Assembly (NCBI RefSeq): GCF_004153455.1
Contig: NZ_SDQE01000004.1
Coordinates: 1-64,000, forward strand
DNA length: 64,000 nt
Direction: 5' to 3'
Origin: Allopusillimonas ginsengisoli
GTDB lineage: Bacteria > Pseudomonadota > Gammaproteobacteria > Burkholderiales > Burkholderiaceae_B
Position numbers and translations under genes: made by a program. Shown one piece after another: positions 36,800 through 48,471 of this stretch. The notes under the pieces are model-generated. The model saw only the letters and a program-made list of their open reading frames with translations, was not told the origin of the DNA and ran no database searches. The first letter of the stretch is position 1. Every line of letters begins with the position of its first letter.

Positions 36800-37697
36800 A
36801 CCCGTGCGGGAGATCCACGCGGCGTCGAACAATCCGGCGCCTGCCTGGCTCAGGGCAGGCCCGGCGCTGTTCGTGCTGCTCTGGTCACTGGGATTCGTCT
36901 TTCTCAAGCTTGGCCTTGCCTATGCCGACCCCCTGACCTTCCTGGCCTTGCGCTATGCCTGTGTTGTGCTGCTGCTTCTGCTGCCTTTTCTTTGGCTGCG
37001 CGCGCCCATGCCCAACGGATGGCCCGCATGGCGGCATCTGCTCGTGGTGGGTCTGCTGTTGCAGGCTGGCTATTTTTCGTTTGCCTACCTGAGCCTCAAG
37101 CTGGGCATGTCGGCCGGCACACTGGCGCTGATTACTTCTCAACAGCCGATTCTGGTCGGGCTGCTGGCGCCGATGCTGGCTGGCGAAACGGTGGGGCGCG
37201 TGCGGTGGGCAGGGCTGGTACTGGGGGTGGCGGGCGCCTCTATCGTCATCCTGGCCAACTCGATCACCGGCAGTGGCACTTCCTGGGCAATCACCTTCGC
37301 CGTGATGGCGCTGCTGACGCTGGCTGGCAGCACCCTGTGGGAAAAGCGTTATGGCGCGGAAACCCACCCCGTAACAGCCAATCTGGTGCAATACACGGTC
37401 GGACTCCTGGTCACCGCGCCATTAGCCTTCTGGCTCGAGCCCATGCGCATCAGCTGGACACCCGGCCTGCTTGTGTCGTTAAGCTATCTGGTGCTGGGCA
37501 ACTCGATTATCGCAATTTCGCTGCTGCTGGCGATGATACGCCATGGCGAAGCCTCGCGGGTGTCTGCGCTGTTCTTCATGGTGCCGCCCGCCACCGCCAT
37601 ACTGGCCTTCATCGCGCTTGGCGAGACGCTGGCCTGGGCCGCATGGCCCGGCATCGCGCTGGCGGTGGCGGGTATCTATCTGGTCATGCGCCGCTGA
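36792..37697 (+). CDS. EamA/DMT-family transporter
   Basis: A 301-residue, ten-helix inner-membrane protein with two EamA halves (starting ALFVLLWSLGFVFLKLGLAY and MALLTLAGSTLWEKRYG). It is a likely exporter of metabolites or amino acids; the substrate is unknown. The start is uncertain: TTG at 36792 overlapping the DUF2214 gene, or GTG at 36804. It ends inside the convergent MFS gene by 14 bases. Confidence 0.88.
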   Translation: MPEPVREIHAASNNPAPAWLRAGPALFVLLWSLGFVFLKLGLAYADPLTFLALRYACVVLLLLLPFLWLRAPMPNGWPAWRHLLVVGLLLQAGYFSFAYLSLKLGMSAGTLALITSQQPILVGLLAPMLAGETVGRVRWAGLVLGVAGASIVILANSITGSGTSWAITFAVMALLTLAGSTLWEKRYGAETHPVTANLVQYTVGLLVTAPLAFWLEPMRISWTPGLLVSLSYLVLGNSIIAISLLLAMIRHGEASRVSALFFMVPPATAILAFIALGETLAWAAWPGIALAVAGIYLVMRR

Positions 37698-38946
37698 CGG
37701 GCGTGTTGTCCTGGGACACACTTCGCGCCTTGACCAGCGCAGAGCGGCCTGCCCCCCAACCGTTAAATGCCGTTGCCAGGCCCACGGCGGCAAACACCCA
37801 TACCGTGGCTTCAAAGCTGCCCGTGGCGCTGTGAAGAATACCGACAAGAAGCGGACCGCTGGCGGCTAGCACATAACCGATGCCTTGTGCCATACCGGAA
37901 AGATGGGCTGCCACATGGGAATCGGGTGAACGCAGCACGATGACGGTCATGGCCATCGCAAACAGCCCGCCTTGCCCAACGCCCTGTATCACCGCCCAGA
38001 ACCATAATGTCGAGACCGGAGCGAACAACAGGCCAATGAGTGCAGCGCTTGCAATGAGCGCCAAAGCGGCGTTCAGCATGCGTTGGTCTCGCAAGCGCAC
38101 TGCTAGCGCAGGCACCAGCAAACAGGTGGCAACTTGCAGCATGACAGAGACTGAAGTCATGAAGCCGGCGTGCACGCCATCCAGACCGCGTGCGCGCAAA
38201 ATAGGCGCCATCCATCCCATGACGCAATAGGCCAGCGCGGACTGCAGGCCCATGAACAGCGACACCTGCCAGGCCAGCGGATCGCGCGACAGGCCGCGGA
38301 CCGAATACCGGATATGCCGCGAAGGCGCCTTGCTGCGCAGCGACTGAGGCGCCCACATGAAAAACACCACGGCGGCCGGCAGGCCCCAGATGGCAAGACC
38401 CAGGCGCCAGGCGTCGTTGAAATAATGGGCAATGGGCAAGGTAAGCGCAGCGCCGAACGCCGCACCGCCACACAGCGCCATCGTATAGAGGCCAGTCATC
38501 AGCGCCGCGCGCTGCGGGAAATCTCGCTTGACCACGCTGGGCAACAATACATTGCCCGTGGCAATGGCGGCACCCGCCAGCGCCGATCCGGCAAACAAGC
38601 CATACAGCCCGCCCATGCCCCGCAGCCCGGTGCCTATCGCCAGCAGCAACAGAACCAGCAAAAGGCAGCGCTCGGGCCCAATGCGCTGCGAAAGGCGTGG
38701 CGCCACTGGCGCGAACAAACCGAGACACAGCACAGGCAATGTTGTCAGGTAGCCGGCGCCAGCCGAGGTGAGTGGCGTGGCCTGGATGATCTCGGGCAAC
38801 AGTACTGACAGACTGGAAAAAAGCGGACGCAGGTTGAAGGCGATCAGAACCAGGCTGGCGCCAAGCAGGAGGTGAGCGGCAACGCTGCGGGCTGGGACGG
38901 CGCTGGCGCTCAGCGAGGGGTTCTGGCCAGATTCAGGAGAGGGCAT
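37684..38946 (-). CDS. MFS transporter, CynX/NimT-like
   Basis: A 420-residue, twelve-helix major-facilitator protein. The first helix region (LLLGASLVLIAFNLRPLFSS) and the loop RLSQRIGPERCLLLVLLL are typical of the CynX/NimT (cyanate or nitroimidazole) branch. The substrate is unknown. Its start lies at 38946 on the minus strand, divergent from nothing recognisable: 285 bases separate it from the end of tpgA. Confidence 0.85.
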   Translation of the reverse strand: MPSPESGQNPSLSASAVPARSVAAHLLLGASLVLIAFNLRPLFSSLSVLLPEIIQATPLTSAGAGYLTTLPVLCLGLFAPVAPRLSQRIGPERCLLLVLLLLAIGTGLRGMGGLYGLFAGSALAGAAIATGNVLLPSVVKRDFPQRAALMTGLYTMALCGGAAFGAALTLPIAHYFNDAWRLGLAIWGLPAAVVFFMWAPQSLRSKAPSRHIRYSVRGLSRDPLAWQVSLFMGLQSALAYCVMGWMAPILRARGLDGVHAGFMTSVSVMLQVATCLLVPALAVRLRDQRMLNAALALIASAALIGLLFAPVSTLWFWAVIQGVGQGGLFAMAMTVIVLRSPDSHVAAHLSGMAQGIGYVLAASGPLLVGILHSATGSFEATVWVFAAVGLATAFNGWGAGRSALVKARSVSQDNTPVSGA

Positions 38947-39231: not shown

Positions 39232-40020
39232 CTAGCCGCGATGCGCTACCGTTATGTCAACGCGGCGATTGGGCGCAAGACATTCAATCAAGGCCGCACG
39301 CGGCCCGTTCGCACACTGGACAACAGGCTGGCGCTCGCCCATGCCATGCGCCTGGATACTGGAAGCGGGAATGCCCTGCGAGATCATCTGATTGCGCACG
39401 GCCTGTGCCCGTCTGTCGGAGAGCGCCAGATTGCTGGCGTCGCTGCCGATATGATCGGTGTGGCCGGTGACCACGATGGACGCCTCGCCCTGGCGAGGCA
39501 AAGCGCCGGCCACTCGATTGACTTCGGCCACCCCGGCCGCCGTCAGTGTTGCGCTGCCAAACGCAAACAGCACATCGCCTTTCAGAGACAAGGCCTGAGG
39601 CGCAGGCGCCGGCTTTCTCGGATTGAGCAGATCGGCGCAAGCCTCGGGCTTCCACAAGAAAGTCTGGGCATGCTTGTCCTTGTCGAACAAAACCTTGTAC
39701 TGGCAAGTCAGGTCGCCCCGCGGCGTACGAAAATGGAAGAGATAGTCCCATTCGCGCACGCCGGCCAAGCCTTCGCTGAAATGCGGGCGGCCGATCAGGC
39801 TGTAGACCTGATCCTTGGTCATGCCCGGGCCCATGAGACGCAGGCTATCAAGCGTGGGGTATGCGCCTGTGTCAAACGTTGTATCCACTGGATCCGGCCA
39901 GACGGGCTCATCCGTTGTGCCCTTGTCGCTGATCTGGCTCAGGTTGCCGCAGGCAGCCAGGGCCAGCACCGCGGCAAGGCCGCTTGCGCGCAGAGCGCAG
40001 GTTTTCAATGTCTTAAACAT
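39232..40020 (-). CDS. tpgA: TpgA-like lipoprotein (BamE/SmpA-like + OmpA-like domains)
   Basis: A 262-residue outer-membrane lipoprotein. The lipobox ends at Cys24 (LAAC). A SmpA/BamE-like domain follows (about residues 60-115, LMGPGMTKDQVYSLIGRPHF), then an OmpA-like peptidoglycan-binding domain (about 145-262, with TGHTDHIGSDASNLALSDRR). In Acinetobacter, TpgA with this domain order is encoded next to the trimeric autotransporter AtaA and helps hold it in the outer membrane and to peptidoglycan. Here the gene starts 85 bases after the giant adhesin on the same strand, so the same role is likely. The intergenic hairpin may set the ratio of the two products. Confidence 0.88.
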   Translation of the reverse strand: MFKTLKTCALRASGLAAVLALAACGNLSQISDKGTTDEPVWPDPVDTTFDTGAYPTLDSLRLMGPGMTKDQVYSLIGRPHFSEGLAGVREWDYLFHFRTPRGDLTCQYKVLFDKDKHAQTFLWKPEACADLLNPRKPAPAPQALSLKGDVLFAFGSATLTAAGVAEVNRVAGALPRQGEASIVVTGHTDHIGSDASNLALSDRRAQAVRNQMISQGIPASSIQAHGMGERQPVVQCANGPRAALIECLAPNRRVDITVAHRG

Positions 40021-40042
40021 AGCTTCTTATCCTTGGATTCTC

Positions 40043-40072
40043 GCTGTGGCCGGTGAAGGCACCGGCCACAGC
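40043..40072 (-). repeat. Intercistronic hairpin between adhesin and tpgA
   Basis: Perfect 13-base arms (40043-40055 and 40060-40072) around AAGG. No T-run follows on the minus strand. It may protect the 3' end of the adhesin message or reduce read-through rather than end transcription outright. Confidence 0.6.
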
Positions 40073-40105
40073 ATGCATGCACTCGGTCGTTTCAACAGAA
40101 CACGG

Positions 40106-43100
40106 TTACCACTGGTAGCCCACGCCAACCGAGCCGCCGTAGTCTCCACGCGATGAGCCGCTGGCGGTACCCTTGACGACCCATTTGCCGTTATCCGAGA
40201 TGGTCGACAGGCCCATGGCGTAACCGCTTTCACCGCGCCATGTACCGCCTCCCAGGCTGAGCATGCTCTTGCCCGGCAGGTAAGCCTGAGGCAGACCCGC
40301 TGTTGCCAGCGCCGCCGCCACACCCGCACTGGCGCGATTGTCCACGCGATCGATACGGCTATCCAGACGATTGATGTGGTTGGCAACGTTGCCTGCCACC
40401 CTGTTCAACTGCCCCAGGTTGACTGCGTCGCTGTCCTGTTTGCCGTCGGCAAGGTTGGTGATCTGCTTGTCACCCATGTCGATACCGTCCTGATTGATGG
40501 TCGGTCCGTTTTCAATGACAACCTCCTTGGCCGATACGGTATTGGTCGTCACACTGTCGACCTTGATATCCTTGGCCATGCCTACCGTGATATTGGTGCC
40601 ATCGCGGGTGATTTCGACGTTATCGCCGTTGACGAACTGCACGGTGTCGCCCGGTCCGACCTTGCTTGCGGTGTCGCCGTTGGTCTGAACGTTCCAGCCC
40701 ATGTTGGCAATATCCGCAACATTGTCGATATCGGTCTGTACGCCGTTGAGCGCATCATTAACGTTGTTGTAGGTGTTGCCGCCCACATTCAATTCCGTCA
40801 CCAGCTTGCCATCGACAAACGTGGAGTTGCCACCCATGCCATCGGCGATGCTGTTGCCCATGTCGTGGATCTGGCTGCCGTTGACTGCGTCGGTGCTGTT
40901 TTCGGAGATTTCGCCGCGCGCCAGATTGGTGATTGTCGTGCCGCCAGTGCGCCCGCCATCGGTGGAGACATCGCCCTCCAGCGTGACCCTGTTCTTGGGA
41001 TCGCCCACGTTGCCGTCGTACTTCACCGCGCGGTCGCTGAGATTATCGACATTGTCCTGGACACCCTTGAGCTGGCTGACGTTCACCGCGTCTGTATCGG
41101 CCACGCCCGCCTTGACGTTCGTGATCTGGAAACCGCCGGCGTTAATGCCGGTAACAGACGAGATGATTACCGTGCCCGCCGTAAGCCCCGTGTTGTTCAG
41201 CACGATGGGACCATTGGGACCGCCGTTGATGGTGACGCCATCGGTATTGAGCACCGTATCGCCAGTCGTGACAGAATCTACGGCGATGTCCTTGGCCAGA
41301 TTGAACTGCACGTCGTTGCCAGCCTTGGTGATGTCGATATTGCCATCGGTATTGGCCAGGTCCACCGTGTCGCCGGGTGCGACGTTGCTGCTGTTCGCGC
41401 CATTGGCTGTCAGGTTCCAGCCCTTGTTGGCCACATCGCTGACTTCCGTCAGTTGGTCGACGTTGACCGCATCGGTGCCGTCAATGCCCTTGGCAAGATT
41501 ACGGATTCTGTTGCCATTCATGTCGATGCCGTCCTTGCTGATCACCGGACCGCCATGGTTGATCGTCAGGCTGTCGGCTGTCAGGTTATTGGCCAGCAGA
41601 ATCTCCATCTCGCCGTCGGCATTGACCTGAGTACGAATGTTGCTGGACGAGGCTGGCTGCGCGACATCCAGCGACCCGCGGATCACCTGCGTTTCGCCAA
41701 GCTTGCGCTCGACCGACCCCTCGTTGCCCGCGAAGGTGATGGGCCTGCTCGCAACCCCGTACAGTTGCGAACCATTAATCGCTTCCGTGCTCGTACTGCT
41801 GATTTCTCCATCCGCGACACCGCTCACTTTGTTGTTGCCGAAATTCACAGTCGTGCCCGGCGTGACCGTAAACTGAGAGCTGACCAGGACGCCGCCATTG
41901 AGCGCGGCCAGACCATCCACCGCGAAAGCGCCGCCTACCGACAGATTGTTCTTGATGCCCACATCATCCGCCAGGTTGAACTGCACATCGTTGCCTGTCT
42001 TGGCCACGACGATGTTGCCATCCGTGTTGGCCAGATCAACGGTCGCGCCTGGCGCGACGTTGCTGCTGTTCGCGCCGTTGGCTGTCAAGTTCCAGCCCTG
42101 GTTCGCCACATTGCTGACTTCGGTCAACTGATCGACATTGACCGCATCAGAGCCATCGATACCTTTGGCAAGATGAGTGATCCGCTTGCCCTTCATGTCG
42201 ATGCCGCCCTGGTTGATCACCGGCCCACCGTTGTTGATCGTCAGGCTGTCTGCCGTCAGGTTGTTGGCCAGCAGGATTTCCATCTCGCCCGCGGGATTGA
42301 CCTGCGTGCGGATGTTGCCCGACGAAGCGGCCGCACCGCTGTCCAGCGAGCCACGAATGACCTGCGTTTCGCCCAGCTTGCGCGCCACGCTGCCGGTGTT
42401 GCCGGCAAACGTGATCGGCGTATTGGCCAGTTCGTAAAGTTGCGCGCCATTGACAACGTCAGTGCTGGTATTGGTAACGTCGCCCGCCTTGACGTTGGTG
42501 ATTTTGTTGCCACCAAAGTCGACGTTGGTGCTCGGCCTGACCGTCAGATTATTGCTAATCACCGCACCGCCATTCATATTGGTCACGCCAACGATGGTCG
42601 TATCGCCGCCTACATTCAGATTTTGCGCAATGCTGGTATTGCCGCCCACCGTGAAGTTGTTGGTGACGTTCACATTGTCTGCCAGGCCAAACGTTACCTT
42701 GTGGTCGGCATCGCCCTTGCTCACCACGATGTTGTCGTCAGCCGCACTGGCCAGATCAACCACTTCGCCGGGCTTCACATTGGTCTGATTGGCGTTGTTG
42801 GCCGTCAGTCTCCAGCCCTGGCTCGCCACGTTGCTGACTTCGGTCAACTGATCGACATTGACCGCATCAGAGCCATCGATACCCTTGGCAAGATGAGTGA
42901 TCCGCTTGCCCTTCATGTCGATGCCGCCCTGGTTGATCACCGGCCCGCCGTTGTTGATCGTCAGGCTGTCTGCTGTCAGATTGTTGGCCAGCAGGATTTC
43001 CATCTCGCCTGCGGGATTGACCTGCGTGCGGATGTTGCTCGACGACGCAGCTGCGCCACTGCCCAGCGAGCCACGAATGACCTGCGTCTCGCCCAGCTTA

Positions 43101-46100
43101 CGCGCCACGCTGCCGGTATTGCCGGCAAACGTGATCGGCGAGTTCTTCACGCTGTACAACTGGCTGCCATTGACCGCATCCTTGCTGGTATCGCTGATCG
43201 TACCTTCAGCCACGCTGGTAATCTTCCTGCCACCCATATCGGCGCCCTTGAACTGCGGCGTTTCCGCAAACTGGATCTCAATCCTGCCGCCCTCGTAGAC
43301 GACGTCGCCATCGCTATTGGTCCGCTTGGTGCCGCCGGTAACCACGGTCTTGACGTTCTGTGCGGAAGTCGCGCCGGTGTTGGCGCCGACAATGGCAACC
43401 GCAGAGCCCATGGTCTGATTGGTCTGGCCGCTGTTGCCCGTGTATGTCCAGGGTGTATCGCGCACCGCGCGAAGTTGCTTCACGTTCACCGCATCGGTGT
43501 CCGCCATGCCGCCCGCCAGATTGGTGATGCGGCGTTCGATACTGCCCGTGCGATCCTGGCCGCCATGATTGCCCACAGACACCACCCCTGTTTCCGCATC
43601 GTTGTGGTCAACCTTGGAATAGCGCGCGACCGTCGCGCCATAGGCAGATTCGGTATTGGAATCCGACCCGAGTGCGACCGAGTTCATGGCCTGAGCATGA
43701 GCACGGGTACCAATGGCGATGGTATTGGTGTTCTTGTCTTCTTCACCGGGCTTGGGCGAGGCAATACCCGCCACCGCATCCCTGCCCAGCGCAATCCCGT
43801 TGGACGCATAGCCGCGCGCATTTGTGCCCGACGCTATGCTGTTCGCGCCCATGGCGCGCGCACCGGTGCCGCTGGCCGCAGCGTTGATGCCGTGCGCCTG
43901 GGCATTGGAGCCAAAAGCCTGGGAGTCGAGTCCGCGAGCCGCAGCATGGTAGCCAACCGCCGCGCCACGTTTGGCGGATGACACCGAATGCTCACCCATC
44001 GCGATACCGTTGTCTGCCGTTACATCGGCATCAGTACCGATCACGATCGCGTTATCAACGGTGACATTGCCTTCTTTGGCGTCCGACTCGGCACGCGTGC
44101 CGATCACGATGGAATTCTCTCCACGGCTTTGCGCTGCGTTCCCGATGGCGATGGTGCTCTCGTGATAAGCGATGCTGCCGTGCCCGATCGCTGTCGCGCT
44201 ATCGGCATCAGCCTTGACCGCGTTGCCTAGCGCGATGGCGCTCTGTCCCGTGGACAGTGCCGAATTCCCCAAGGCCAGGCCGGAAGCACCGGACGCCGCG
44301 GCAGCCGGACCGATCGCCATGGCGTCGAGACCCGTTGCGCCTGTGTTGTCCTCATTGGCGCTCACTGTCGAGTTGACATCGAAGTATCGCGTTTTTTCAG
44401 CATCTACCAGGGATTTGACCTGGCCCACGTTGGCCGCATCGGTATCGTCGACACCCGCCTTCAGGTTTTTTATCGTGGTGCCGCCAGCGCCGCCCAGCGT
44501 GACGACTTGCTGGCTGCTGCCGCCATCGTAGAGCACCGCGCCTACGTCGTTGATGACCGTGCCCGTGCCGCCATTGCCAAGTTCGGTCAAGGCCATGGCC
44601 ACTGAGCTGTATTTCTTGCCACCCACTTCAAACTCGGTGACCTTGCCGTCTACCAGCGTCCCATTGCCCAGCACTTGTGCCAGGTTCTGTTGCGCGGCGG
44701 TCAATTGCCTCACGTTCACGGCATCGGTGCCTGCGCTACCGTCGGCAACGTTGACAATGCGGCGCTCGCCGCCCGAGCGGCCGACGGACACCACGGCGAT
44801 TGGATTGCCGGCCGCATTGGAGCCGGTGAGAAACCCTACGCCACTGGAGGACGCAGCCTGAGAATTCGTTCCCAGAGCGACACTGTCGCCCTGGGCCCTG
44901 CTGTTGGCGCCCAGTGCCACGCCCCAGTCGCCGCTAGTCTGAGCGTTAGCGCCCAGGACCGTGGACAAGGTCCCCTGCGCCTTCGCTTTATTGCCGACAG
45001 CCACCGAATGACTTTCGGCGCTGCTCTCCCCGCCAATTGCTACTGCATGTTCTACCGTCTTTCTGACTGCGCTTTCATTGGCCTTGTAGCCAATGGAAAT
45101 GTTTTGATTGCCATTCAGACGGGTACCCGCGTCGTTGCCGATGGAAACGGTGTAATCGCCGGACACGTCTGAGCCCGCCCCATAACCGATGGCAGTGCTC
45201 TGATTGCCGGAGACCCGTTGACCCGCATTGGTGCCGATCGCAATATGCGAGGTCTTGTCCAGCCCGGGATTGACCGGCCCCTCGATCGTGCCTATGCCTG
45301 CACCGGTTCCCAGTGCAATGCTGTTCAGGGTCGATGATTGCGCACCTTTGCCCACCGCGATGCCATTCGTCGAACTGGCTTTGGCCTGGGTGCCCAAGGC
45401 AATGCCGTCGTCGCCATCAGCCGAAGCGCTGCTGCCAATGGCGGTTGCATTGCCTGCACCCGCAGTCGCCTGGTTGCCCAGGGCGATCGCGCCGCTGCTG
45501 TATTGTCCAGACACTGTGGCCTTGGTGCCGATCGCAACTGAGTTCGACACGAATTCCGAGGCCACCGTGGCTTGATCGCCCATGGCGATACTGCCCGCGC
45601 CATTGGCTTGAGCCTTGCGCCCGACGGCCACGGCGCCTATGCCCTTCTCGCCGACGGTTGCAGCTTGGCCAAGCGCCATGCCAGCTTCTGCCTGCTCTGC
45701 TACGGTGGCGCCATCGCCCGCCGCCAGGCTGCCTTTGCCTGCGGCAATGGATTCGGGCCCTATGGCCACGGAATCCTGGCCCGAGGCATCAGAGTCGGCC
45801 TTGGTCGATGTTGCATGAAAATACTTGATGCCCTTGCCATCTTCATAGAGATCTTTTTGCATCGTGTACAGCTGGTCGCCTGTGACCGCTTCAGTGCTGC
45901 CGGCGGCAACGTCGCCGTTGGCCAGATTGCTGATTTTCTTGCCGCCCATGTTCAGGCCGCCGTTCAGCGTGGCTTGTCCGTTGACAACAAGCGGGCCGCC
46001 AATGGTTGCCGCGCCTGTGCTCGTTAACGTCTGCGCCTGAATCTGGTCCTTAGTCTTGACGGTAATCGTGCCGTCACTGCGCGTCACATCAATGTTCGAG

Positions 46101-46672
46101 CCGCCCACAATGGTGACCGCGTCGCCCGGCTTGATCGCCTTTCCGGCATCGGCGGCGCCACCTTTCAGCGTCCAGCCTTTATTCACATCGGTACTCAGCG
46201 TACCGACCGTGCCGCTCAGATCATTTACCGTGCCAGTCAGCGTGTTCACGGAGTTCACCGCCGATTGGGCAGTGTTCTGCACCGAAAACAACTGACGGCC
46301 GTTAACCGCGTCCGTGCTGCCCGCATTGACCGCGCCATCGTTCAGCCCGGCCACCCGGCCTCCATTCACAAACTCGATCTTTCCGACGCCATTCGAAAAG
46401 ATGATGTCATTGCCGTCAGCATGAATAGGCGAGGTGGAATCTGCGATGTCGACATCCGCCCAGGCCTGGCCGCCCAATCCCAACATGCCGGTGGCAACGA
46501 ACAATGCGGTTCCCATGAGCCGGCGAGCCTGGCCTGCGCCACGCAACGCGTTTGTTTCCATTCCCCCGTCTACGCTGGAACCCGAGCGCTTTCCTCGTCC
46601 CCGCGCGTTCTCTGAAACGGCGACAAAAGTCCCCGTCTGTTCATTCCATACCGTCTTGTAGATACGATTCAC
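40106..46672 (-). CDS. Giant trimeric autotransporter adhesin (YadA-like, type Vc)
   Basis: A 2188-residue surface adhesin. It opens with an extended signal peptide (MNRIYKTVWNEQTGTFVAVS) and a hydrophobic core, with cleavage near residue 72 (GGQAWA). Two YadA-type head regions follow (about residues 295-640 and 785-1085), made of 14-residue left-handed-helix repeats such as AVAIGGESSAESHS. Necks with the DAVNGRQL/DAVNVRQL motif join them to stalk segments. From about residue 1150 to 1830 the stalk has near-identical modules. The C-terminal anchor (AGLPQAYLPGKSMLSLGG to final Trp) forms the 12-strand barrel when trimerised. Trimeric autotransporters bind host or abiotic surfaces and promote autoaggregation; the ligand here is unknown. 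tpgA is downstream, and two AraC-type regulators lie upstream. Confidence 0.97.
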   Translation of the reverse strand: MNRIYKTVWNEQTGTFVAVSENARGRGKRSGSSVDGGMETNALRGAGQARRLMGTALFVATGMLGLGGQAWADVDIADSTSPIHADGNDIIFSNGVGKIEFVNGGRVAGLNDGAVNAGSTDAVNGRQLFSVQNTAQSAVNSVNTLTGTVNDLSGTVGTLSTDVNKGWTLKGGAADAGKAIKPGDAVTIVGGSNIDVTRSDGTITVKTKDQIQAQTLTSTGAATIGGPLVVNGQATLNGGLNMGGKKISNLANGDVAAGSTEAVTGDQLYTMQKDLYEDGKGIKYFHATSTKADSDASGQDSVAIGPESIAAGKGSLAAGDGATVAEQAEAGMALGQAATVGEKGIGAVAVGRKAQANGAGSIAMGDQATVASEFVSNSVAIGTKATVSGQYSSGAIALGNQATAGAGNATAIGSSASADGDDGIALGTQAKASSTNGIAVGKGAQSSTLNSIALGTGAGIGTIEGPVNPGLDKTSHIAIGTNAGQRVSGNQSTAIGYGAGSDVSGDYTVSIGNDAGTRLNGNQNISIGYKANESAVRKTVEHAVAIGGESSAESHSVAVGNKAKAQGTLSTVLGANAQTSGDWGVALGANSRAQGDSVALGTNSQAASSSGVGFLTGSNAAGNPIAVVSVGRSGGERRIVNVADGSAGTDAVNVRQLTAAQQNLAQVLGNGTLVDGKVTEFEVGGKKYSSVAMALTELGNGGTGTVINDVGAVLYDGGSSQQVVTLGGAGGTTIKNLKAGVDDTDAANVGQVKSLVDAEKTRYFDVNSTVSANEDNTGATGLDAMAIGPAAAASGASGLALGNSALSTGQSAIALGNAVKADADSATAIGHGSIAYHESTIAIGNAAQSRGENSIVIGTRAESDAKEGNVTVDNAIVIGTDADVTADNGIAMGEHSVSSAKRGAAVGYHAAARGLDSQAFGSNAQAHGINAAASGTGARAMGANSIASGTNARGYASNGIALGRDAVAGIASPKPGEEDKNTNTIAIGTRAHAQAMNSVALGSDSNTESAYGATVARYSKVDHNDAETGVVSVGNHGGQDRTGSIERRITNLAGGMADTDAVNVKQLRAVRDTPWTYTGNSGQTNQTMGSAVAIVGANTGATSAQNVKTVVTGGTKRTNSDGDVVYEGGRIEIQFAETPQFKGADMGGRKITSVAEGTISDTSKDAVNGSQLYSVKNSPITFAGNTGSVARKLGETQVIRGSLGSGAAASSSNIRTQVNPAGEMEILLANNLTADSLTINNGGPVINQGGIDMKGKRITHLAKGIDGSDAVNVDQLTEVSNVASQGWRLTANNANQTNVKPGEVVDLASAADDNIVVSKGDADHKVTFGLADNVNVTNNFTVGGNTSIAQNLNVGGDTTIVGVTNMNGGAVISNNLTVRPSTNVDFGGNKITNVKAGDVTNTSTDVVNGAQLYELANTPITFAGNTGSVARKLGETQVIRGSLDSGAAASSGNIRTQVNPAGEMEILLANNLTADSLTINNGGPVINQGGIDMKGKRITHLAKGIDGSDAVNVDQLTEVSNVANQGWNLTANGANSSNVAPGATVDLANTDGNIVVAKTGNDVQFNLADDVGIKNNLSVGGAFAVDGLAALNGGVLVSSQFTVTPGTTVNFGNNKVSGVADGEISSTSTEAINGSQLYGVASRPITFAGNEGSVERKLGETQVIRGSLDVAQPASSSNIRTQVNADGEMEILLANNLTADSLTINHGGPVISKDGIDMNGNRIRNLAKGIDGTDAVNVDQLTEVSDVANKGWNLTANGANSSNVAPGDTVDLANTDGNIDITKAGNDVQFNLAKDIAVDSVTTGDTVLNTDGVTINGGPNGPIVLNNTGLTAGTVIISSVTGINAGGFQITNVKAGVADTDAVNVSQLKGVQDNVDNLSDRAVKYDGNVGDPKNRVTLEGDVSTDGGRTGGTTITNLARGEISENSTDAVNGSQIHDMGNSIADGMGGNSTFVDGKLVTELNVGGNTYNNVNDALNGVQTDIDNVADIANMGWNVQTNGDTASKVGPGDTVQFVNGDNVEITRDGTNITVGMAKDIKVDSVTTNTVSAKEVVIENGPTINQDGIDMGDKQITNLADGKQDSDAVNLGQLNRVAGNVANHINRLDSRIDRVDNRASAGVAAALATAGLPQAYLPGKSMLSLGGGTWRGESGYAMGLSTISDNGKWVVKGTASGSSRGDYGGSVGVGYQW
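41445..41750 (-). repeat. Adhesin stalk repeat, diverged copy
   Basis: Encodes the same module as the two copies at 42115 and 42835 (EMEILLANNLTADSLTINHG, then a DAVNVDQLTEVSDVAN neck), with more differences in DNA and a few in protein (MNGNRIRNLAKG against MKGKRITHLAKG). Confidence 0.75.
42115..42420 (-). repeat. Adhesin stalk repeat, copy A
   Basis: Matches 42835-43140 at an offset of exactly 720 bases with only scattered, mostly silent differences. It encodes a stalk module with TFAGNTGSVARKLGETQVIR, MEILLANNLTADSLTINNGG and a neck. The two copies differ in protein at a couple of positions only (GSLDSGAAASSGN against GSLGSGAAASSSN). Confidence 0.88.
42835..43140 (-). repeat. Adhesin stalk repeat, copy B
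   Basis: Partner of the copy at 42115-42420. The long near-identity makes this a site for recombination that could delete or add a 720-base, 240-residue stalk unit in frame. Confidence 0.88.
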
Positions 46673-47041: not shown

Positions 47042-47512
47042 CTAGATATTCAGGTTCTCTATGGCTGCAATTTGTTCGCCATAGGAAAGCTGGCGAAACG
47101 ACCAGGGGCTGATGCCAACGTGCTCCCGAAATGCCGTCACGAATCGGGCCGGATGGGTATACCCCACCCTTGCCGCAATATCAGGAAGACCAAGAGATGT
47201 TTCAACCAGAAGCCGCTGAGCCCATCTGAACTTTTCCTGCAGAATCCAGGTATTTATGCGAGCGCCATAAATCGCCATGAAGGCCCGCTCCAGCTTCGCG
47301 GCATCCACGACGAGGGTGGCGGCAAGGTCATCCACCGACGAGAACTTGGCCACATGCCGTCCGATCATCGTCTTGGCAAGCCGCGCCAGAGATCCGTCAT
47401 CCATATGCCTGGGGTCTGCCCCACCGTACCCGATTAGCCTCCTGGCGGGATAATCATCCGTATCCTGGCCGGCATCGGGCCAAGATACATCATCCATGGT
47501 TCGCGTCGACAT
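47042..47512 (-). CDS. AraC-type DNA-binding protein without sensor domain
   Basis: A 156-residue protein, mostly a single AraC/XylS DNA-binding domain at about residues 45-145. The second helix-turn-helix is clear (LPDIAARVGYTHPARFVTAF, then REHVGISPWSFRQ). There is only a short N-terminal stretch and no ligand-binding domain. It lies 116 bases after a receiver-AraC gene on the same strand and upstream of the adhesin, so it may act on the adhesin or form a cascade with its neighbour. That is inference. Confidence 0.85.
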   Translation of the reverse strand: MSTRTMDDVSWPDAGQDTDDYPARRLIGYGGADPRHMDDGSLARLAKTMIGRHVAKFSSVDDLAATLVVDAAKLERAFMAIYGARINTWILQEKFRWAQRLLVETSLGLPDIAARVGYTHPARFVTAFREHVGISPWSFRQLSYGEQIAAIENLNI

Positions 47513-47628: not shown

Positions 47629-48471
47629 CTAATTACTTTTACGCATATTTTTCCGGAATGAAGAAGGGGATTCGCCAAGGTAATCCCGAAAGGCTGTCGA
47701 AAAATTGGCAGCACTTGAGTATCCAAGCTCGGCGGCGATCTCGACAATATTCAGCGACGTGCGTTGCAGCAGAGACTGCGCCTTGAGCATGCGCTCGCGC
47801 CGAACAAATTCGAACAAGGTCATGCCTAGACAGGATTCAAATACATGGGCAATCCGTCGCTCGGAAACGCCCAGCATCCGTGCCAGGTCTGCAGCCTTGG
47901 GCGGGTCATCCAGCGCATCGATGATGGACCGCTGAGCCGCCCTCAACAGCACCATGTCGCCCTCGGAGAAACGGCTGGCGGAATCGCCGGCCGCTTGCGC
48001 ACCCGACTGCTCCGGACCGGAACGCGCGGAAGTTTCGGCTTCCATGGCAGGCCACGCCGTCGCATCGGACCAACGCCGATCGCGAGCAAGCCCCAAATGT
48101 ATGCGGACACGCTCGATAACTTCCAGCGCCTGAAACGGTTTGAGGATGTAATCCACGGCCCCAGCCCGCAGGCCAGTAAGCCGGTCCTGGATATCTGCGG
48201 ATGCGGACAGAAACAATACCGGAATATGCGCGGTGATCGCATCGGCCTTGAGCAGCCGCGCAACCGCGAACCCGTCTTTCTTGGGCATTTGAACATCAAG
48301 CAGGATCAGGTCCGGAATCATGGCCACCGCCCTGGCATACCCTTGGGCGCCATCGAAGGCGATGGTCAGACGGTAACCCTCTTCTCGTAAGGCCTCTACA
48401 AGCAAACGAAGCTGATCGGGGTTATCGTCCACCAACAAAATGTGCTGGACTTTTGTGGTGACTTTTTTCAC
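47629..48471 (-). CDS. Response regulator with AraC-type output domain (orphan)
   Basis: A 280-residue regulator. The N-terminal receiver domain has the phosphoacceptor Asp59 (DLILLDVQMPKKDG) and the acidic pair and Lys (ILKPF) in place. A linker of about 35 residues leads to a full AraC domain (about 175-280, with IVEIAAELGYSSAANFSTAF). No histidine kinase gene is next to it, so it is an orphan receiver controlled by a distant kinase. The receiver-AraC architecture is less common in Gram-negatives than OmpR- or NarL-type outputs. Confidence 0.9.
   Translation of the reverse strand: MKKVTTKVQHILLVDDNPDQLRLLVEALREEGYRLTIAFDGAQGYARAVAMIPDLILLDVQMPKKDGFAVARLLKADAITAHIPVLFLSASADIQDRLTGLRAGAVDYILKPFQALEVIERVRIHLGLARDRRWSDATAWPAMEAETSARSGPEQSGAQAAGDSASRFSEGDMVLLRAAQRSIIDALDDPPKAADLARMLGVSERRIAHVFESCLGMTLFEFVRRERMLKAQSLLQRTSLNIVEIAAELGYSSAANFSTAFRDYLGESPSSFRKNMRKSN

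Follow-up and report, generated by a model that had tools for sequence, protein, structure and literature searches.

Introduction

YadA-type trimeric autotransporter adhesins (TAAs) are exported via Sec and carry a trimeric 12-stranded barrel with a C-terminal anchor of about 60 residues. How fibres that are pulled hard are held in a thin outer membrane is an open mechanical question. Here we examine a TAA gene and the tpgA-like gene directly behind it in a 64,000-nucleotide stretch of Allopusillimonas ginsengisoli DNA (contig NZ_SDQE01000004.1 of assembly GCF_004153455.1, positions 1 to 64,000), hereafter the window. The closest described systems are AtaA–TpgA of Acinetobacter sp. Tol 5 (PDB 9vnj) and Ata–TpgA of A. 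baumannii. In Tol 5 the complex is a trimeric assembly of both proteins (PMC13082670), and TpgA is not lipidated; the cysteine needed for this is missing from its signal peptide, which is cleaved at Ala24 (PMC5861075).

Pairs of TAA and TpgA-like genes are already in print for many genera, Burkholderia included (PMC13082670, PMC5861075), and the pair described here is not new in kind. As early as 2007, an OmpA/SmpA-family neighbour was listed for a Burkholderia YadA protein, the YadA-type gene adjoining its partner as in the window (BMAA1324/BMAA1323; PMC1847439), and in BCAM0219/BCAM0220 a TAA was found by reverse-transcription PCR to be co-transcribed with a lipoprotein gene (PMC3404963); these two accounts differ from the present one in that TpgA is not named in the passages concerned. 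Salmonella SadA–SadB likewise combines a TAA with a co-encoded lipoprotein helper (PMC8151025, PMC6604945), but SadB is a trimeric inner-membrane lipoprotein to which TpgA reportedly has no similarity (PMC8151025). Against this background, we find that the two genes in the window very probably constitute an adhesin–anchor unit of the AtaA–TpgA type.

Results

A trimeric adhesin followed by a TpgA-like gene

The window lies on contig C28 of the 33 contigs of a 4.5-Mb genome. Both genes lie on the minus strand, with 85 nt from the adhesin stop to the start of the tpgA-like gene (Table 1). A first-pass annotation, made from the letters of the window, had read here a 2188-residue YadA-type adhesin and, 85 nt on along the same strand, a BamE/OmpA gene; the open reading frames (ORFs) lie where it placed them, and the profile search that it proposed returned both the SmpA/BamE-like and the OmpA-like domain. 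In the adhesin, the ESPR, YadA_head, YadA_stalk and YadA_anchor matches all exceed their Pfam cut-offs, and the C-terminal YadA_anchor combined with head or stalk repeats identifies a type Vc protein. No second YadA anchor was found in the host genome, and Tandem Repeats Finder reported no array in the adhesin gene. An antisense ORF of 1201 aa lies inside this gene (40376-43981, plus strand); it and other antisense ORFs there are probably by-products of adhesin composition.

Table 1. Positions in the window of the adhesin–partner pair, its domains and key residues, and the surrounding features
Feature	Position	Strand	Basis
Trimeric autotransporter adhesin	40106..46672	-	ORF 2188 aa, GTG start; ESPR, 13 YadA_head, 14 YadA_stalk, YadA_anchor
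tpgA-like gene	39232..40020	-	ORF 262 aa, ATG; BamE-like + OmpA-like predicted lipoprotein; best NCBIfam model NF047726 TpgA
Adhesin: ESPR extended signal peptide, residues 2-48	46529..46669	-	PF13018 E 1.9e-15
Adhesin: YadA_anchor beta-barrel domain, residues 2128-2188	40109..40291	-	PF03895 E 2e-18; matches 9vnj_A (AtaA transmembrane domain) E 3.2e-12
Adhesin: K2135, LPGK turn, equivalent of AtaA K3576	40268..40270	-	Alignment to 9vnj_A, column counts
Adhesin: D2160, SDNG turn, equivalent of AtaA D3601	40193..40195	-	Alignment to 9vnj_A, column counts
Partner: Cys24, lipobox LAAC, +2 = Gly	39949..39951	-	Translation; invariant in 30 aligned full-length relatives
Partner: BamE-like domain, residues 52-118	39667..39867	-	PF04355 E 2.2e-15; 56.6 bits vs cut-off 23.2
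Partner: K69-D70, equivalent of TpgA K64-D65	39811-39816	-	Alignment to 9vnj_B
Partner: OmpA-like domain, residues 151-240	39301..39570	-	PF00691 E 3.2e-21; over curated cut-off
Intergenic hairpin: perfect 13-bp stem, 4-nt loop, no T-run after	40043..40072	-	In 85-nt gap between adhesin and tpgA-like gene
AraC-type response regulator	47629-48471	-	Upstream of adhesin
Small AraC-type protein	47042-47512	-	Upstream of adhesin
MFS (major facilitator superfamily) transporter	37684-38946	-	Downstream of tpgA-like gene

The partner resembles TpgA in domains and fold

Judged by its predicted domains, modelled fold and aligned interface residues, the partner is TpgA-like. Its best NCBIfam model, NF047726 (TpgA), matches with 141.6 bits over model positions 24-267 of 268. 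Residues D189 and R204 of the OmpA-like domain are invariant in 30 aligned rows; in Acinetobacter OmpA, such residues are reported to bind peptidoglycan. When the N-terminal domain was searched by sequence against solved structures, the best match was 9vnj_B, the Tol 5 TpgA chain (E 2.6e-14), with BamE chains at E 0.003 or weaker. Because whole-protein fold searches gave, among the matches listed, OmpA-domain rows only, this domain was predicted alone (pLDDT 83) and then fold-searched. Compared with 9vnj_B, the model scores Z 13.0 (90 residues, 2.1 Å; Foldseek E 2.5e-7). The best of the BamE folds listed, that of Neisseria gonorrhoeae, gives Z 9.2, and E. coli BamE does not exceed 7.5. For the C-terminal half, Z values of up to 20.9 (4rha_A) were obtained with OmpA C-domains. 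By its tpgA-like gene, the closest named relative is an Allopusillimonas ginsengisoli record, with 75% identity over the BamE-like domain.

The partner has the fold and the TKDQ motif in common with BamE of the BAM complex, but BamE is the weaker structural match and the host encodes its own BamE elsewhere. That the partner is itself the ordinary BamE of the host was considered and rejected, as a separate BamE on contig C27 scores 100.8 bits against 59.1.

Adhesin and partner genes are linked across genera

A survey of 268 genomes of the same family found a YadA anchor in 91 and a TpgA match (E up to 1e-20) in 55. For the linkage count, 66 of 72 TpgA rows were used (five OmpA-only rows and one BamE-only row were dropped) against at least 150 anchor rows. 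Among the anchor matches listed, an anchor ends 49-247 nt upstream on the same strand for 51 of the 66 TpgA rows, and because so many sit directly behind a YadA anchor, the adjacency of adhesin and partner is not a matter of chance. All 52 genomes in the family TpgA linkage list also have a listed YadA anchor. As to the 15 unlinked rows, one directly precedes a TAA, and another follows a TAA at a distance of 1.8 kb, separated from it by a gene; for the other 13, no TAA was seen within the stretch fetched.

Within the genus, both genes are present in three of five genomes (that of the window, G073 and G076), in the same place in G073 and G076. Neither adhesin nor tpgA-like gene was found in the remaining two, G074 and G075, and in G075 about 100 nt separate the transporter match from the regulator match that flank the site. 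The two genes are thus absent together within the genus, as in Acinetobacter, where ata and tpgA were jointly lost with closed flanks (PMC6363060). The first-pass annotation had held that finding the two genes apart in close relatives would count against the pair; the outcome is mixed, the two being adjacent in all three same-genus genomes that have them but unlinked in 13 Pasteurellaceae genomes and for extra copies in some Burkholderiales (see below).

A scan of named records, in which the best 80 of 376 relatives were kept (79 loci), gave 82 tpgA-like genes, counted on the oriented strand, and certain genomes contribute more than one. The hidden Markov model for the anchor missed several long TAAs at first and was re-run on C-terminal ends; 65 of the genes lie behind a TAA and 17 do not. 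Linked pairs occur in many genera, among them Bordetella, Alcaligenes, Burkholderia, Cupriavidus, Variovorax, Neisseria, Pseudoxanthomonas, Luteimonas and Testudinibacter. Two of the 17 unlinked genes are at contig ends, two are in near-identical Xenophilus records and 13 are in Pasteurellaceae. In a Pasteurella testudinis record (L164), TAA and tpgA-like genes alternate in an array, with three partners within 20 kb.

Residues at the predicted interface

The Tol 5 complex contains the AtaA–TpgA salt bridges K3576–D65 and D3601–K64 (PMC13082670). AtaA numbering was obtained here as the 9vnj chain position plus 3522, which places both loops where that paper has them. By alignment, residues equivalent to those of both salt bridges are present on the two partners in the window, as K2135–D70 and D2160–K69. 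In all of 88 distinct linked pairs, D or E stands at the D3601 site and K or R at the K64 site; K stands at the 3576 site in 73. Arginine at the 3576 site is found in none of the 68 pairs that keep TpgA D65, versus 6 of the 20 without it (Fisher 7e-5, uncorrected for kinship).

For comparison, 55 anchors were fetched of the 89 that have no listed partner in same-family genomes; a genome without detected TpgA means here one with none among the matches listed (to about E 1e-17), and 40 loci were also viewed 1.2 kb downstream. Where the genome has no detected TpgA (39 anchors), the acidic residue is present in 16, K in 9 and both in 7; where TpgA lies elsewhere in the genome (16 anchors), the acidic residue is present in 10 and K in 11. 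Genus g2 is the source of most TpgA-less family anchors, and by hand count K plus acid occurs there in 6 of 6 linked anchors versus 2 of 26 without detected TpgA. In a sequence-weighted comparison of linked with TpgA-less anchors that have the PG turn, the D2160 column ranks 1st of 62 and K2135 16th; without the PG-turn filter they rank 2nd and 10th. The 13 Pasteurellaceae genomes with unlinked copies have 67 anchors, of which 35 were read, 31 with the acidic residue and 27 with K. As a diagnostic of TpgA, the K/D turn signature was rejected: Hia, seven of the 39 TpgA-less family anchors and nearly all of the TpgA-less Pasteurellaceae anchors read have it.

Partners that lack the wall-binding domain or the neighbouring adhesin

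A lipobox is found in 120 of 121 distinct relatives (111 strict and 9 looser), the remaining one being cut off by a contig end. Asp at +2 occurs in none of the 115 strict lipoboxes, a count made over 125 proteins with some genes included twice. In 24 of 88 distinct linked partners, the ORF contains no OmpA match. Two linked BamE-only proteins from named records (L116 and L123) are matched by the TpgA model and, at E up to 1e-5, by none of the NCBIfam models for BamE; L116 is a B. cenocepacia record, in which the BamE-only partner adjoins a TAA. An unlinked BamE-only protein (L047) matches the TpgA model at 2.7e-19 and the BamE model at 9e-7. On a poorly resolved tree of 134 domain rows (some genes twice), in which gain and loss are not separable, the presence of the OmpA domain changes at least 12 times.

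Six Neisseria loci (L108, L114, L123, L125, L127 and L138) combine a complete TAA ORF of 379-454 aa with a BamE-only protein of 153-157 aa encoded behind it, and the partner is therefore not tied to giant adhesins. The first-pass annotation had suggested that the anchoring partner is a wider feature of giant trimeric adhesins; the partner is indeed widespread, as was already in print (PMC13082670, PMC5861075, PMC8151025), but the restriction to giant adhesins does not hold.

Partners without an OmpA match would also suit a protein that acts in assembly and not as an anchor, its BamE-like domain mainly helping BAM to fold or insert the barrel, with wall contact secondary. The domain is of BamE ancestry, and loss of TpgA in Tol 5 lowers the surface display of AtaA (PMC5861075, PMC8151025), both of which speak for such a role. 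In the Tol 5 crystal structure, however, the TpgA N-domain sits on the mature barrel, and simulations give mechanical reinforcement (PMC13082670); the host genome, moreover, has a BamE of its own. We regard a mainly assembly role as possible but rather unlikely, although assembly and anchoring may both hold.

In 13 Pasteurellaceae genomes among the loci of the named scan, the sole TpgA match is unlinked, and each genome has 2-10 YadA anchor matches (loci L147, L151, L152, L154-L157, L160, L162, L166, L169, L128 and L135). In 9 of the 11 non-Gallibacterium Pasteurellaceae loci, the tpgA-like gene follows a gene whose start looks SohB-like. Among 140 Pasteurellaceae genomes, a TpgA-domain match (E up to 1e-10) is present in 132, with exactly one in 106. 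Co-occurrence is uninformative in this group, because all 140 genomes have YadA anchors.

The unlinked copies (15 of 66 family rows and 17 of 82 named-locus genes, two of these at contig ends) speak for a rival reading, in which the partner would be a general OmpA/BamE envelope lipoprotein that neighbours the adhesin through shared history and does not bind it. This is highly improbable in our view, as the pair is linked in many genera, both genes are missing together within the genus and the interface residues are present; the presence of YadA anchors in each of the 13 Pasteurellaceae genomes whose copy is unlinked adds little, since all 140 genomes examined have them.

Among the open-licence PubMed Central titles and abstracts listed in literature searches, none concerned TpgA copies unlinked to an adhesin in Pasteurellaceae. 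Dorison (bioRxiv, 2026) is cited for an extensive survey of proteins auxiliary to TAAs, in which partners of the BamE-only or unlinked kind may have been reported already. Extra tpgA-like copies were also seen near the ends of two similar-looking TAA-less clusters in one genus (L034-L041, from genomes G044, G045, G049 and G053).

Intergenic hairpin and neighbouring genes

The gap between the two genes contains a perfect hairpin (Table 1). The gap has a folding z-score of -4.28, and a 13-bp stem was reached by 0 of 2000 shuffles (maximum 11). Of 85 distinct linked gaps, 21 contain a perfect stem of at least 9 bp, the stems differing in sequence and the shuffle control applying to the gap of the window; in the gaps of the other two same-genus genomes with the pair, no stem of at least 9 bp was found (6 and 8 bp). 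As a guess, the hairpin may set the ratio of the two products. No terminator-like site among those listed falls in the coding-strand gap between adhesin and tpgA-like gene, and promoter and terminator scans gave a number of sites not above that in shuffles.

Two AraC-type genes lie upstream of the adhesin and a transporter gene downstream of its partner. The genome G075, in which no adhesin was found, has matches to both AraC-type regulators, one of them twice; because of this, the regulators are not adhesin-specific.

Discussion

Taken together, the domains, the fold match of the model, the conserved residues and the linkage argue strongly that the two genes form an AtaA–TpgA-type adhesin–anchor unit. 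Assuming that both genes are expressed, the adhesin would be exported by Sec via its extended signal peptide and would insert as a trimeric barrel, and the partner, with predicted lipidation at Cys24, would be sorted to the inner leaflet of the outer membrane. The most likely place of the BamE-like domain is on the periplasmic side of the barrel, as a cap in which K69 would lie opposite D2160 and D70 opposite K2135, and by analogy with Tol 5 there are probably three partner copies per adhesin trimer. Attachment to peptidoglycan most likely falls to the OmpA-like domain. The adhesin would then be held by its own barrel, the clamp behind it, the lipid and the cell wall, and the clamp may also aid passenger display.

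Several observations weigh against this assignment. The NF047726 score of the partner lies far under the curated cut-off of 350 bits, for which reason we call it TpgA-like and not TpgA; none of the 268 same-family genomes reaches that value, which looks like an Acinetobacter-type threshold. The partner here is a predicted lipoprotein, whereas Tol 5 TpgA is not lipidated (PMC5861075). The likeness to Acinetobacter TpgA drawn in the first-pass annotation thus stands for domains, fold and interface residues, to which gene order may be added, and falls short in lipoprotein status, in the NF047726 score and in the N-domain identity to 9vnj_B of about 30%. The interface residues also occur outside linked pairs, as the TKDQ motif is found in ordinary BamE, and the K/D turn residues in Hia and in 7 of 39 family anchors from genomes without detected TpgA. 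Of the 21 anchors in Pasteurellaceae genomes where no TpgA was detected, 5 were read; all five have the acidic residue and four have K. A test on independent pairs from a 116-row anchor tree had three supported pairs, a number with which significance is unreachable, and gave for K plus acid an average over pairings of 1.4 in the expected direction and 0.0 against.

Beyond this locus, we put forward, as a speculative and rather doubtful generalization, that N-domains of the TpgA type serve Hia-type barrels throughout Beta- and Gammaproteobacteria as a general periplasmic clamp, which is exchangeable and needs neither linkage to the adhesin gene nor a wall-binding domain. In many Pasteurellaceae, a single gene might on this idea serve several different adhesins in trans, and the two periplasmic turn residues of the barrel might reflect dependence on the clamp.

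To the pairs already in print, the present analysis adds the near-universal lipobox among relatives, the BamE-only partners, the unlinked Pasteurellaceae copies and the turn-residue counts. The pair suggests that the AtaA–TpgA solution, with the same interface, operates in a betaproteobacterium, together with a predicted lipid anchor that is absent from the model system. In partners that lack the wall-binding domain, clamping would be uncoupled from attachment to the wall, and genomes that combine a single unlinked partner with many adhesins bear on whether one clamp may serve several barrels.

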